38,289 bases of DNA from Acidobacteriota bacterium (GTDB lineage: Bacteria > Acidobacteriota > Terriglobia > Terriglobales > Acidobacteriaceae). This document shows positions 19,205-24,234 of the stretch, piece after piece (position 1 is the stretch's first letter; every line of letters begins with the position of its first letter). A program made the position numbers and the translations under genes. The DNA lies in the NCBI GenBank assembly GCA_003225055.1, contig QIAU01000208.1:1-38289 (forward strand), given 5' to 3'. The notes below the pieces were generated by a model. It saw nothing but the letters and a program-made list of their open reading frames with translations, did not search any database and was not told where the DNA came from.

Positions 19205-20497
19205 CTACTCGTAGACCTGTAATTGCTTCCCTCTCGTCTCGGGCAACAGCGCGACGGCCAGAATCATGATCAGATATGCACTGACGGCAAACAAAGCGAT
19301 GGCCCGTCCCAGCGGGATGCGGGCCCCCAAATAGCCCACCAGCGTGGGAAAGAGCGCGCCGATGCCACGGCCGAAATTGTAAGAGAAGCCTTGACCCGAA
19401 CCGCGCAGGCGCGTGGGAAACAATTCCGTCAGAAACGCCCCCATGGGGCTGAACGAACCGGAAGCGAAAAATCCCAGCGGGAATCCCAGCGCCAGCATGC
19501 CTTGGTTGCTGATGGGAAGGTAGGTATAAGCCGCAACCGCTAGGAACGAACACATAGCGTAGAGAATCAGGGTACGCCTTCGGCCCAACCGGTCCGTGAG
19601 GTAGGCACCGACCATATATCCAGCAAAGGAGCCCGCGATTACCACGATCAGGTATGCGCCCGTGTTGAACACTGATAATCCGCGAACCGTCTTGAGATAG
19701 GTTGGCAGCCAGGTGGTAATGGCGTAATAGCCGCCTTGCGCACCGATTGCCATGAACGACGTAAGCACCGTGATGCGCAGCAACGACGGGCCAAAGATCT
19801 CCAGAAAGTGGCTCCGGCTCCCCTGCTCGACGACCTCGCGGGTTTTCCTGTACACCTCGGGTTCGGGAACAAAGCTGCGGATATAAAACACCAGCATGGC
19901 CGGCAGGATGCCGATCCAGAACATGGCCCGCCAGGCGATGGTCGGCGGCAAAGCCGAGAACAGAAATGTGTAGAAAATCGCCGCCAGGCCCCAACCGATC
20001 GCCCAGCCTCCCTGCACCGTTCCTACCGCCCTGCCCCGTTGTTGCGCGCGAATGGTTTCTCCCATCAGGACCGATCCCACCGCCCACTCGCCCCCAAAAC
20101 CGAAACCTTGCAATCCTCGTGTGAGCATCAGTTGCCAAAAAGAATTGGTGAATCCGCTGAGAAAGGTAAAGAACGCGAACCAGGCAATGGTGATCTGGAG
20201 GATGCGCACACGCCCAAAACGATCGGAGAGCAATCCTGCCAGCCAACCGCCCACCGCGGAGATCAGCAGGGTGGCCGACGCCAGCCATCCTGCCTGGCCC
20301 TTGCTGATCTGCCAGGCCGCCATCAGGCTAGGAATGACGAAGCTGTAGACCATCACGTCCATGCCATCCAGGGCCCAGCCACCAAAGGTAGCGATCAAAG
20401 TGCTCCGTTCGGTGGGAGTGAGCTCGGCCAGCCATGAGCCTTCGGCTTCGGCTGTAGTCGGATTTTGTTCCCCCCGGTGAGAAGGAAATGTGGGCAC
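19205..20497 (-). CDS. MFS transporter (AAHS/sugar-acid symporter-like)
   Basis: A major facilitator protein of about 430 residues with twelve predicted helices. The loop-2/3 motif GLLSDRFGRVRIL and its repeat GAYLTDRLGRRRTLI mark the two halves, and GGWALDGMDVMVYSFVIPS in helix 1 is like the aromatic-acid/sialate H+ symporter group. The substrate cannot be set from sequence. The first in-frame codon is a TTG at 20545 without a ribosome site; I prefer the GTG at 20497, which has AGGCGA upstream. It follows the DMT gene on the same strand after a gap of about 115 bp and may be co-transcribed with it. Confidence 0.8.
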   Translation of the reverse strand: MPTFPSHRGEQNPTTAEAEGSWLAELTPTERSTLIATFGGWALDGMDVMVYSFVIPSLMAAWQISKGQAGWLASATLLISAVGGWLAGLLSDRFGRVRILQITIAWFAFFTFLSGFTNSFWQLMLTRGLQGFGFGGEWAVGSVLMGETIRAQQRGRAVGTVQGGWAIGWGLAAIFYTFLFSALPPTIAWRAMFWIGILPAMLVFYIRSFVPEPEVYRKTREVVEQGSRSHFLEIFGPSLLRITVLTSFMAIGAQGGYYAITTWLPTYLKTVRGLSVFNTGAYLIVVIAGSFAGYMVGAYLTDRLGRRRTLILYAMCSFLAVAAYTYLPISNQGMLALGFPLGFFASGSFSPMGAFLTELFPTRLRGSGQGFSYNFGRGIGALFPTLVGYLGARIPLGRAIALFAVSAYLIMILAVALLPETRGKQLQVYE

Positions 20498-20613
20498 GAC
20501 GCTTCGCCTGTAGACGAGTGCACGATTATTGCAGGAAGCTTGCAAAAATCAAGGCGCTGGGCAACGGGGGAGTGGCGATGCCGTTTCTTGGCAACCGCTG
20601 CCACCTTGAAACC

Positions 20614-21570
20614 TTACTCCATTGGTTCGACCAGGGCGGCCTCTTCGCGGCTTGCCCCATCTGGCATCTCGACCAGAATAATTGCCGCCAGCACGATGAT
20701 AACCCCTAAGGCTTGCAACGGACGCACGCCTTCGCCCAGCACAACCGCCGCAATCACAATCGAAAACACCGGCTCCAGGCAGCTGCCCACGATCGCGCTG
20801 GTCGCATCCAGGTGCTGCAGGCCCGCGAAATACAGCGAGAAGGGCAGCAAAACCGAGGTCATGGCGAACACCACCAGGAACAGCCACTGACCAGCTTCGT
20901 ATTGCGCCGCCACAATCTTCCAGGGAGGGTTGACAACAATCCAGAACGCTGTGGCACTGGCCAGCGTATAAAGCAAAATCTTCCAGCGATCGTGGCGCGC
21001 CAGGATGTCGTGTCCGCCCAGGTTGTAGAACGCAAACGAAAAGGAGGCTAAAACCGCAGCCATCAATCCCAGCGCATTGCTGCGGAATCCGCCACCCCCA
21101 ACCCCGATAGCCAAGGCGCTGCCCAACACGGCAAGGGCAACGGCGGTCACGCGCTGCACCGTCGCCTTCTGCTGCCCACGCGCTACCAAGTAGAGCAAGA
21201 CCCAGGCTGGTGCGGTGTACTGCAAAATGATGGCTGTGGCTACGTTGGTCTTCTGGATGGCGAGATAGTAGAAATAATTGGAGGCGGCGACACCGAGAAT
21301 TCCGAGCAGAATCGTGTGCAGTAAATCCCTGCGCGGCAGTTGAAGTCCCTTTCGGCCGCGAAGCAACAGCAGTATTACCAGCAGCACGAAAAAGGAAAAG
21401 GTAGTTCGGCTTTGAGCCAGGATCATGGGGTCGATCGGCCGCAGCGCCTGTCCTCCGGGTATCAACCGCCCGGTAAAAACCGCTCTCCCCAGGGTGGCAG
21501 AAATTCCCCAGAAAAAAGTTGCTGTGCCGATGTAGAGAAATCCGCGGACGGGATGCGCTTTAGGTGGCAA
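20614..21570 (-). CDS. DMT-superfamily (EamA) transporter
   Basis: A drug/metabolite transporter of 318 residues with ten hydrophobic segments in two EamA halves (about 10-150 and 160-305). The first helix contains GTATFFWGISATLGR and the last helix of each half is rich in Gly/Ala. Substrates of this family are often amino acids or metabolites and cannot be named here. The likely start is TTG at 21570; it overlaps the last 11 bases of the glutaredoxin-like gene, so translation is probably coupled to reading through that gene's in-frame TGA. No other start codon is near the first helix. Confidence 0.85.
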   Translation of the reverse strand: MPPKAHPVRGFLYIGTATFFWGISATLGRAVFTGRLIPGGQALRPIDPMILAQSRTTFSFFVLLVILLLLRGRKGLQLPRRDLLHTILLGILGVAASNYFYYLAIQKTNVATAIILQYTAPAWVLLYLVARGQQKATVQRVTAVALAVLGSALAIGVGGGGFRSNALGLMAAVLASFSFAFYNLGGHDILARHDRWKILLYTLASATAFWIVVNPPWKIVAAQYEAGQWLFLVVFAMTSVLLPFSLYFAGLQHLDATSAIVGSCLEPVFSIVIAAVVLGEGVRPLQALGVIIVLAAIILVEMPDGASREEAALVEPME

Positions 21571-21796
21571 GCAGTTGGTCCAGCCGGTCCGGATCGAAGC
21601 CGATGATCACCTCTTCCCCAATCACAGTCGTTGGGGTCGAGCGGCTGCCATATTTATAAACCAGATCACGCACGGCAGAGGGATGGAGCTTGATGTCCCG
21701 CTCTTCGTAGTCGATACCCCTTCCCGAGAGGTAGGCCTGAAGCCATTCGCAGGGCGGTCAACCGGGTTGCGTGAAGATGACGACCTTTTTGCTCAT
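21560..21796 (-). CDS. Glutaredoxin-like selenoprotein candidate with UGA at the first active-site Cys (UPPC)
   Basis: The frame from ATG 21796 to TAA 21560 encodes 78 residues with one in-frame TGA (21758-21760) at position 13. The residues around it read TQPG-U-PPCEWLQAYLSGRG, exactly where glutaredoxins have CPPC. The rest is family-like and undamaged: KYGSRSTPTTVIG with the cis-proline STPT near 53-56, and EEVIIGFDPDRLDQLL at the end. Length equals that of short glutaredoxin/NrdH proteins. A stem-loop lies 24 nt after the TGA. Selenocysteine is the simplest reading, giving a reactive selenol reductase; a TGC-to-TGA nonsense mutation or sequencing error is the alternative. The ATG has GAGG directly before it, and an in-frame TAA upstream fixes this start. 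The gene lies 37 bp after osmC and overlaps the DMT gene. Confidence 0.8.
21715..21733 (-). promoter_or_regulatory. Candidate bacterial SECIS stem-loop
   Basis: On the minus strand UACCUCU (21733-21727) pairs with AGGGGUA (21721-21715) in seven consecutive pairs, one of them U-G, around the loop CGGGA (21726-21722). The loop starts 32 nt after the UGA and has G as its second base, which fits the loose bacterial SECIS rules as I recall them (short stem, small loop with an early G, about 15-40 nt from UGA). A 3-bp hairpin GGC-UUCAG-GCC lies just before it. SECIS elements bind SelB to direct selenocysteine insertion. Confidence 0.6.
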
Positions 21797-21833: not shown

Positions 21834-22238
21834 CTATTTTTCACCGTATTCGATCTCGAAGGTGATTTTAGCAGTCTTGCCCAGCATGGCAGCTACCGAA
21901 CAGTACTTTTCCTCGGAGAGCCGGACCGCATCTTCCATGGCCTTGCGCGAAACCTTTCCGCCCACCCGGTAAGTAAGCCTGATCTCGGTGTAGACCGTGG
22001 GCGGACTGGCCGCTCGTTCCGCCTGCGCCTGTACTTCCAGGCTGGTGAACGGTTCCCGCTTCTTGCGCAGGATGTTGACGACATCGGCAGCCGTGCAGCC
22101 GCACAGGCCAATCAGAACCAGTTCCATGGGGCTGTTGGCCGTCTTCTCCTTGGCAGCGTCTATTACCACGGCATGGCCGCTGGAGGCTATAGCAAGGAAG
22201 CGCTCACTGTCGGTCCAAGCTGCTCGGGCTTTGGTCAT
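21834..22238 (-). CDS. OsmC/YhfA-family peroxiredoxin-like protein
   Basis: An OsmC-fold protein of 134 residues. Members reduce organic and fatty-acid hydroperoxides with two cysteines. Here GLCGCTAADVV carries Cys46 and Cys48, of which Cys48 aligns with the peroxidatic Cys of the GCT motif, and EKYCSVAAML carries the resolving Cys113. NSPMELVLIGL precedes the first, as in the family. I chose ATG 22238 because AAGGGGA stands just before it; the longer in-frame version adds 24 residues that cross an inverted repeat. The next gene downstream is the selenocysteine-type glutaredoxin candidate, a possible reductant for it. That pairing is inference from position. Confidence 0.88.
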   Translation of the reverse strand: MTKARAAWTDSERFLAIASSGHAVVIDAAKEKTANSPMELVLIGLCGCTAADVVNILRKKREPFTSLEVQAQAERAASPPTVYTEIRLTYRVGGKVSRKAMEDAVRLSEEKYCSVAAMLGKTAKITFEIEYGEK

Positions 22239-22677
22239 TTCCCCTTGCCTTTCTGGATTGCTGGTTGCCAATTGCCGATTGTTTTTCTTGGCCGTGCGGC
22301 GCGAAGCCACGAAAACTGCTGTGAGCTCGTCGGCTTCCGAAATCAGGGCCTACCAATCTCTCTGACCCGACCAGACTCTCATCGGTCAACAATTTGAGCC
22401 CGGACAGTCTCATCAGCTTCCGCCTCGACGATGCCAGCTTGAAAACAAATTCCGCTCGCGGGCGCACCCGACCAGCAGCCCGCTCGTTGGCGGCTAGCGA
22501 TGTACCTGAGCCCAGCAACTGGTTTTGGATCCCGCGCGTCAGGGCAACGGGGCCCAGACCGAAACCATTTTAGTATCCGCAGCGCAAACATTGTGGTTGG
22601 GTTCTTCAGATCCTCGGCGCTCACTCCCCTGCTGTCCTCCAATCGGCAATTGGCAATTGGGCTGTGACCGGCGAACC
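22239..22677. other. 439-bp gene-free stretch
   Basis: This lies between the osmC start and the CDF transporter end. I find no convincing gene on either strand: the open frames (22204-22518 and 22379-22642, minus) have no family resemblance and no ribosome site. It is bracketed by the 17-bp inverted repeat described separately. No tRNA T-loop motif is seen. It should hold the osmC promoter, but I cannot place it. A degraded gene or small mobile unit is possible. Confidence 0.5.
22265..22656. repeat. 17-bp perfect inverted repeat bracketing the gene-free stretch
   Basis: TTGCCAATTGCCGATTG at 22265-22281 is the exact reverse complement of CAATCGGCAATTGGCAA at 22640-22656, with 358 bp between. 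The core TTGCCAATTGCC recurs at 19122-19133. The unit may be a dispersed intergenic repeat or the ends of a small non-autonomous element. I see no flanking target duplication. Confidence 0.55.
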
Positions 22678-24108
22678 TCAGCGCCGGTTATCCGTCTGCG
22701 GCTCGGGGTGTATCAGCACGCGGAAGAGCTCCGGCGCGTCCTGCTTGAAGCGAATTTCCAGAGCGGTCTGGATGTCGTGCACCCGCGACAGCGGCAGGTC
22801 ATCGGACATCGTGCAATGGCAGGAAACGTACAGCCGGTCGCGCACTCGCTTGAATTTCACGTCATGCATGTCCACGATTTCCGGGAACTCGGCGACGACG
22901 GCCTTCAGGCGCCGTTCCAGGCGGCGATCTCGTACCACTTCATCTCCGCTTTCAATCGTCGCCGGTTCGCTTTCGATGTGAGTCAGGATGGAGGAGATTT
23001 CCGGTACATCCCGCCGAATCTCCGCTTCCAGGAGCGTTACCCGGTCGTGAGCCTCCAGCAAAGTAAGCCGCTCATCCAGCTCCAGATGTTGTTCGACGTG
23101 AAGACGCCCACTCAGATCCTGCACGCTGACATCGTGCACATTGAAATTGTGCCGCGTCGCCACGGCCCGAATGCGGTCGAAGATGTTCTCGCCGTGCAAA
23201 GCCCTCGGGATCGAGTGCACGACGACGTCGGCGTCGGGCAGAACGCTGTGGACCGCAATTGTGACCGAGTCCACCATCTGTTCGGAGCGCTGGAAAGTGA
23301 CATTGCGCGCCAGACCAATCGACAAGTCGGCAAAATACCGGTTTCCCGCTCTCCGGATGCGGACGCGATCTACTTCCAGCACTCCGTCCACTTCGGAAAC
23401 CGCAGCGATGATCTTGGAACGCACTCCGGAGGGAGCGGCATCCAGTAAAGCGTCGACAGTCTTCCGCGCCAGACGCCAGCTGACATAGACGATCACCCCC
23501 GCCACAACCAGCGCCGCGACCGGGTCGGCGTCCCCTAACCAACCCACTCCGTAGGTTCGGCCCAAGATCACCAGGACCAGACCAAGCACCACGACCGCGC
23601 TGGACCAGATATCGGTCGAAAAATGGAGCGCGTCCGCTTCCAGAGCCTGGCTGTCATACTTCGCCGCAATCCGCCCCAAGGCGCGCGAGCGCCAGTAGTC
23701 GACAATCATGGAAAGACACATCACGCCAAAGGCGGCCAGGCTGGGCTCGATCTTCACATGGCGATAGAAGAGACGCAGCCCCGCTTCGTAAACGATCGCC
23801 ACGCACGTCAGCAGCAACAGACCGGTTTCAAGGAAGGCAGAGAAGTTCTCGATTTTGCCATGGCCATACTGGTGGTCAGCATCGGCGGGTTTGTCGGAAA
23901 CGCGGATCGAGAAGAAGGTAACCAGCGCCGCGACCAAATCCAACCCGGAATGCGCGGCTTCTGACAAGATTCCCAGGCTGCCCGTGCTGCTGCCCACCAC
24001 GATCTTCAGCGACGTGATGGCGATTGCCGCCAGCACAGAATTGCCGGCCACTCCGCGCTTCTCGGCGCGCATCGATTCCGGGCTGAGCCCGGCGGGTGTT
24101 CCCGACAT
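22678..24108 (-). CDS. Cation diffusion facilitator transporter with three C-terminal dimerisation-like domains
   Basis: A CDF-family metal/proton antiporter of 476 residues. Six helices occupy about 20-215. The transport site is H53-x3-D57 (AAHSGLD) in helix 2 and H162-x3-D166 (LHFSTD) in helix 5, the HD-HD pattern usually linked with zinc. HQYGHGKIE follows helix 2. After the membrane part come three consecutive segments that each look like the cytoplasmic ferredoxin-like dimerisation domain: about 227-300, 308-380 and 395-470; most family members have one. ATG 24108 is chosen; an upstream start at 24204 would run into the divergent promoter. It may be a metal-sensing exporter with extra regulatory domains. 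Confidence 0.85.
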   Translation of the reverse strand: MSGTPAGLSPESMRAEKRGVAGNSVLAAIAITSLKIVVGSSTGSLGILSEAAHSGLDLVAALVTFFSIRVSDKPADADHQYGHGKIENFSAFLETGLLLLTCVAIVYEAGLRLFYRHVKIEPSLAAFGVMCLSMIVDYWRSRALGRIAAKYDSQALEADALHFSTDIWSSAVVVLGLVLVILGRTYGVGWLGDADPVAALVVAGVIVYVSWRLARKTVDALLDAAPSGVRSKIIAAVSEVDGVLEVDRVRIRRAGNRYFADLSIGLARNVTFQRSEQMVDSVTIAVHSVLPDADVVVHSIPRALHGENIFDRIRAVATRHNFNVHDVSVQDLSGRLHVEQHLELDERLTLLEAHDRVTLLEAEIRRDVPEISSILTHIESEPATIESGDEVVRDRRLERRLKAVVAEFPEIVDMHDVKFKRVRDRLYVSCHCTMSDDLPLSRVHDIQTALEIRFKQDAPELFRVLIHPEPQTDNRR

Positions 24109-24194
24109 AGCGGCATTATCGCTGGTCGACAGTTGCCCCGCCAAGCCCACGTCGCACCCACGTACCCTGCGCTGATGGAAGCTCTGTGCTACGA

Positions 24195-24203
24195 TGCTAT
24201 ACA
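24195..24203 (+). promoter_or_regulatory. Extended -10 TGCTATACA for the foldase gene
   Basis: TG-C-TATACA is an extended -10 box 31 nt before the ATG at 24235, giving a leader of about 25 nt that includes the GAGGAGA ribosome site near 24217-24223. No clear -35 is present, as expected for extended -10 promoters. The region also serves the divergent CDF gene. Confidence 0.45.
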
Positions 24204-24234
24204 TCCCGAAATACCCGAGGAGATCAGTTTATTT

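Follow-up and report, generated by a model that had tools for sequence, protein, structure and literature searches.

The window analysed here, a 38,289-nucleotide stretch of a genome from an Acidobacteriota bacterium, carries on its minus strand a short gene for a glutaredoxin-like protein, very probably a selenoprotein, that is flanked by genes of the OsmC and EamA families (Table 1). The redoxin frame has 79 codons including the stop, with a single in-frame TGA at codon 13, and its read-through translation is MSKKVVIFTQPGUPPCEWLQAYLSGRGIDYEERDIKLHPSAVRDLVYKYGSRSTPTTVIGEEVIIGFDPDRLDQLLAT. A sequence-only reading of this DNA had located and described the gene correctly; the strand, which it did not give, is minus. 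The plus-strand frame over the same interval is also open, and nothing redoxin-like was found there on inspection. With its listed TTG start the EamA gene shares 11 nt with the 3' end of the redoxin gene; the OsmC gene may begin later than its listed GTG, as most orthologues become similar only from about residue 20-25. A promoter and terminator scan gave two promoter-like sites where shuffles averaged 0.7 (sd 0.9) and three terminator-like sites where they averaged 2.7; an Rfam search of the window gave no match.

Table 1. Position of the putative selenoprotein redoxin gene, its recoding features and its neighbours in the window.
Feature	Position	Strand	Remarks
MFS transporter gene	19205-20545	-	further downstream; PF07690, 193 bits
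EamA-family transporter gene	20614..21570	-	directly downstream of redoxin
Redoxin gene, putatively Sec-containing	21560..21796	-	78 aa; ATG at 21796, TGA at 21760-21758, TAA at 21562-21560; active site TQPGUPPC; Pro55 of STPT conserved
Putative SECIS-like hairpin, UACCUCUC-GGG-AAGGGGUA	21715..21733	-	7 of 8 pairs in window copy, loop-closing pair missing
In-frame TGA, proposed Sec13	21758..21760	-	active-site position
OsmC-family gene, YhfA-like	21834..22310	-	directly upstream of redoxin; PF02566
Cation-efflux family gene	22678-24204	-	further upstream; PF01545, 147.6 bits

The TGA occupies a single, functionally defined site across many relatives. It is the first active-site position in all 39 distinct loci at which the site was read, the window included (38 of these lie in the 50 TGA-containing genomes of the order described below), and the active site is U-P-P-C in 38 of them and U-I-F-C in the distant L060. 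All 13 non-TGA rows that were read have Cys at the equivalent position. The statements of the sequence-only reading that TGA replaces the first active-site Cys, and that random decay is an unlikely origin for it, are thus borne out by this one codon across the 39 distinct loci. Positions 13 and 16 and Pro55 are invariant among 32 aligned rows (U scored as C). Judged from the 64 codons after the TGA, the frame is still protein-like, with 19 synonymous and 15 non-synonymous differences from L032 of the same genus, 15 and 21 from L034, and 29 and 20 from L033. That the TGA is a true stop, i.e. that the locus is a pseudogene or bears a recent point mutation or sequencing error, has in its favor that one TGA in an otherwise open frame resembles a recent nonsense mutation, but it is hardly credible, for 39 distinct loci share the TGA at this codon, the protein after it is conserved, and the first in-frame ATG, GTG or TTG that follows it in the window is the GTG at residue 42.

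Cys in all of the closest relatives had been named beforehand as evidence against selenocysteine; instead the top 12 matches, window included, have one TGA each. Among seven relatives from a search of genome contigs the nearest two (L021, L022) have TGA and the other five Cys. In a set of 100 related genomes 56 match the redoxin at E<=0.001, many of these matches having low similarity and no stop; 25 genomes have a TGA-containing match at E<=1e-11 (that of G081 at 1.7e-12) and seven have stop-free matches only, the TGA positions in the G015 and G081 matches lying outside the site-by-site reading. Across the order 94 of 397 genomes have a homologue at E<=1e-12. A TGA-containing match occurs in 50 of these, spread over 29 genera; another 43 have only stop-free matches, and one has only a partial match that contains TAG. 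Four genomes (G319, G260, G425, G015) have two TGA-containing matches each. At the level of the phylum 22 of 396 genomes match. Viral contigs yielded no relative, and the 32 matching records of a plasmid collection are all below 60% identity, the best (Acetoanaerobium, L090) having Cys at the TGA-equivalent site.

The machinery for selenocysteine is found in the source genome (7,411,304 bases in 301 contigs, listed completeness 98.73%). As the sequence-only reading had suggested looking for, SelA (best segment 412.7 bits, joined 528.4), SelB (355.6 bits), SelD (347.8 bits) and a tRNA-Sec (69.4 bits, anticodon TCA by ARAGORN) are all present. A second TGA case, the lack of which it had counted against selenocysteine, is provided by selD itself (L028, G000:C256:82082-83050), which contains an in-frame TGA in the context AAG-U-ASK; SelD is listed as a selenoprotein for other bacteria in the available text of PMC1794560. 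SelB lies above cut-off in all 25 TGA genomes vs one of seven Cys genomes (Fisher P 7.7e-6, uncorrected for kinship) and in 72 of the 100 genomes of the whole relative set. Of the 25 TGA genomes, 23 have a tRNA-Sec of at least 60 bits; the best in G008 (89% complete) reaches 46.9 bits, below cut-off, and the best in G002 (90% complete) has an E-value of 9.0e-8.

Bacterial selenoprotein genes feature a stem-loop just downstream of the UGA whose small apical loop contains a guanosine, according to the available text of PMC1088965, and comparison among the redoxin genes gives a covarying eight-pair hairpin whose loop is GG-initial in 39 of 40 Sec rows (L066 included). Columns 28-35 pair with columns 39-46 round three bases, the U of UGA being column 1, and the loop starts 32 nt past the UGA. 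Over 24 distinct Sec rows, the same rows from which the hairpin was proposed, 92.7% of cells are paired, six of the eight pairs have changes on both sides, and the covariation score is 0.283 vs a shuffled mean of 0.121. None of 500 shuffles was as high on four of five measures, 28 of 500 attained at least the observed value on the fifth (further pair types), and six slid versions of the hairpin all score lower. Stem variants include CCUCUC/GAGAGG, CCUUUC/GAAAGG, CCUCGC/GCGAGG and CCUCGA/UCGAGG. The same columns in 12 rows of Cys homologues are 43.8% paired, not above shuffles, and among 13 Cys rows five have a GG-initial loop and none has more than six pairs. In another 15 distinct Sec loci (16 rows, L066 being counted as L022) there are always at least seven of eight pairs and a GG-initial loop, a weak hold-out because most come from genera already sampled. 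The GG-initial loop is absent after the TGA of L060 (G078), the distant U-I-F-C form, which has either a different SECIS or is a non-Sec case.

Since the hairpin overlaps conserved peptide, codon choice was also tested. Arg at +13 is AGA or AGG in 26 of 30 rows, whereas only 9 of the 170 other Arg codons of these genes are, and Leu at +10 is CTC or CTT in all 40 rows (rows related, P values uncorrected). The case for the hairpin rests on comparison, since folding the 65 nt that follow the UGA in the window gives a stability matched or exceeded by 141 of 200 shuffles (z 0.61), no better than chance order; the hairpin is missing from the single-sequence minimum-energy fold in 3 of 22 Sec rows.

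Reading of the UGA as another amino acid, e.g. Trp by suppression, would suit a frame that is open under any code decoding TGA, but it is given next to no weight: the 13 non-TGA rows have Cys at the site, the genome carries tRNA-Sec, SelA, SelB and SelD, all 25 TGA genomes have SelB above cut-off, and the hairpin covaries. By every sequence test except single-sequence folding the redoxin gene appears to be a real, conserved and widespread selenoprotein gene, and it very probably encodes a selenoprotein redoxin that combines Sec insertion at UGA13 with redoxin chemistry. The selenoprotein interpretation offered by the sequence-only reading is supported by the Sec machinery, TGA in the nearest relatives and the covarying hairpin together.

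Sec and Cys forms occur as near relatives. A redoxin tree of 52 rows and 77 columns (U entered as X, midpoint root; 17 of 48 inner branches drawn open; long rows L026, L058, L060, L057 and L052) needs six changes of Sec/Cys label, five of them forced by starred branches, and can be read, with its midpoint root, as selenocysteine being old in the lineage with several replacements by Cys. The Cys redoxin L043 (G030) pairs in the tree with a Sec row (96/88) and retains six of the eight hairpin pairs with a GG loop; its genome has SelA and tRNA-Sec, with no SelB above cut-off, and L086 of the same genus (G357) is a TGA form, an apparent recent Sec-to-Cys exchange. In three further loci (L023-L025), which fall inside a mainly Sec group of 21 rows (96/96), C-L-N/S-C replaces U-P-P-C within the same OsmC/EamA cluster in genomes with SelB, and a four-residue insert lies ahead of the GFDPDRL block. 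L057 (G033) is likewise a Cys form in a genome with SelA and SelB. Selenocysteine is not obligatory, because such Cys forms occur in SelB-bearing genomes (L023-L025, L057). The Cys forms L053-L056 and L059 (G048, G018, G040, G036, G044) come from genomes with neither SelA nor SelB above cut-off. The Cys form as a mark of lost Sec machinery fits these five genomes and is contradicted by L023-L025 and G033. A separate Cys row, L068 (G409), has four of eight hairpin pairs and keeps EamA downstream, and L040 (G024) and L079 (G329) of the same genus are Sec forms. The near-relative Sec and Cys forms, L043 with its partial hairpin among them, make a good case for studying Sec-to-Cys exchange.

The protein is a member of the Pfam Glutaredoxin family, the profile search that the sequence-only reading had proposed giving 50.6 bits for PF00462 vs a gathering score of 22.9, together with a predicted thioredoxin fold and a CxxC-type site. 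An AlphaFold2 model built from eight rows with Sec entered as Cys has a pLDDT of 93.7; its top PDB match by fold is BC3987 (42-44% identity, rmsd 0.7-0.8 A), followed by dithiol cGrx1 of C. oremlandii (7C10; 34% identity, rmsd 0.9 A). The same two proteins lead by profile, BC3987 again at the top (E 4.8e-27), so that sequence and predicted fold both place the window protein nearest to the CPPC redoxin BC3987 and to cGrx1. Twelve NCBIfam models match it, each with a score short of the model's cut-off. It narrowly misses TIGR02196 (YruB; 81.7 vs 88.55), a cut-off that other redoxin members, with better E-values (best 7.3e-26), may pass; NrdH-redoxin is not reached (45.9 vs 85.75), and the neighbours are OsmC and EamA, not an nrdHIEF operon. 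The UXX-star families are likewise small glutaredoxin-like (seleno)proteins, and their four models are all missed: NF041212 (54.1 vs 66), NF041211 (45 vs 100), and the pair NF041114 and NF047338, whose two results are 30.9 vs 97 and 22.1 vs 72. Metal-ligand roles have been suggested for the UXX-star Sec in the available text of PMC13188914, and a redoxin of this kind would bind metal or metalloid instead of reducing disulfides. The matches to NF041212 and NF041211 speak for such a function; it is nevertheless very unlikely for the window protein, which scores below both curated cut-offs and keeps a second Cys that is invariant in 32 rows (UxxC), vs the UxxT of UXX-star family 1 as given in the same text. 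A disulfide-reducing selenoprotein redoxin is the preferred reading.

Among the 39 distinct Sec loci a same-strand OsmC lies upstream in 30 and a same-strand EamA downstream in 36, the remaining nine having no OsmC within the 1.5 kb flank (flanks were 1.5 kb each side at most loci). Both neighbours are kept in 4 of 13 Cys rows (L043, L023-L025), and since these Cys loci still have OsmC the link between OsmC and redoxin can outlast the Sec-to-Cys change. The OsmC neighbour scores 64.8 bits with PF02566 vs a cut-off of 27.5, and all 24 aligned rows (L021 and L039 being from one genome) share its Cys70, Cys72 and Cys137. With NF008009 (PRK10738, which we take to be E. coli YhfA) it reaches 111.7 bits, below the cut-off of 138, and for this reason is named only YhfA-like.

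A mechanism in three steps can be proposed. First, and strongly supported by sequence comparison, SelB with Sec-tRNA(Sec) would use the hairpin (21733-21715) to insert Sec at UGA13, producing a thioredoxin-fold protein with U-P-P-C at its active site. Second, by analogy with the family, the Sec13 selenolate would attack a disulfide or sulfenic acid of the target, the mixed selenosulfide would be resolved by Cys16, and the Sec13/Cys16 pair would be re-reduced by an enzyme of the thioredoxin reductase type. Such a reductant is favored over glutathione, which is doubtful in this role, because the glutathione synthetase model TIGR01380 matches none of 21 genomes and because Cp9, a related redoxin, uses a reductase of this type, passing electrons from an NADH-dependent thioredoxin reductase to peroxiredoxin (PMC3720550, available text). 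Third, the main target would be the neighbouring YhfA-like OsmC protein, its conserved Cys pair cycling as a thiol peroxidase or related thiol enzyme. Gene order suggests this target, to which we assign slightly less than an even chance. The available text of a 2022 review (PMC8945050) states that thioredoxin- and glutathione-based systems do not reduce the disulfides of Ohr/OsmC proteins and that lipoylated proteins are required, which argues against an OsmC target unless the YhfA-like type differs; the same text states that the biochemical properties and roles of the YhfA class remain to be investigated.

The selenoprotein redoxin might instead be a general electron donor, e.g. to peroxiredoxin, MsrA or ribonucleotide reductase, the cluster being merely co-regulated or co-inherited, and the probability of this is evenly balanced. 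The proposed reduction of MsrA by cGrx1 (PMC7642778, available text) and the activities of BC3987, which can reduce class Ib ribonucleotide reductase, and of Cp9 with peroxiredoxin (PMC3720550) are consistent with a general donor, against which stand the same-strand upstream OsmC genes of the 30 Sec loci and of the four Cys rows L043 and L023-L025. The most specific form of the OsmC proposal, put forward tentatively and in our estimate more apt to fail than to hold, is that YhfA-like OsmC, selenol redoxin and EamA constitute a dedicated pathway of one Acidobacteriota lineage in which recycling of a thiol peroxidase of the YhfA class falls to the Sec redoxin in place of a lipoylated protein. 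If true, the pathway would give the YhfA class its electron donor and physiological role, and the redoxin is a testable candidate partner for YhfA-like OsmC proteins. The redoxin also suggests that one Acidobacteriota family has a redox step that depends on selenium. The gene may often be missing from annotation, because the protein is below the NCBIfam cut-offs and the TGA would shorten it in ordinary gene calling.

Selenoprotein glutaredoxins with UxxC are already in published lists (PMC13188914, PMC9312934, PMC1088965; available text). The available text of a 2006 survey counts three families and four selenoproteins in Acidobacteria (PMC1794560), and that of a 2025 paper three known selenoprotein genes in one Acidobacteriota genome (PMC12013277), among which the redoxin gene could be included. 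The available text of the openly licensed literature yielded no published description of the U-P-P-C form or of the OsmC-redoxin pair. The known systems resemble the window redoxin in different respects. BC3987, with a C-P-P-C active site (PMC3720550), and Cp9 typify redoxins (TIGR02196 YruB-like) that have Cys where the window protein is proposed to have Sec. The thioredoxin-fold protein cGrx1 is itself described as a selenoprotein in its native form, with U(or C)PXC at the active site (PMC7642778); it differs in belonging to another phylum and in its proposed partner, MsrA, the usual neighbours of the window redoxin being OsmC and EamA, with no MsrA among the four window neighbours scanned. 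The Sargasso Sea selenoproteins of OsmC-like type (UxxT; YhfA group, COG1765) resemble instead the OsmC-family, YhfA-like neighbour; they carry Sec in the OsmC protein, whereas the window OsmC has Cys and it is the adjoining redoxin that has the TGA.
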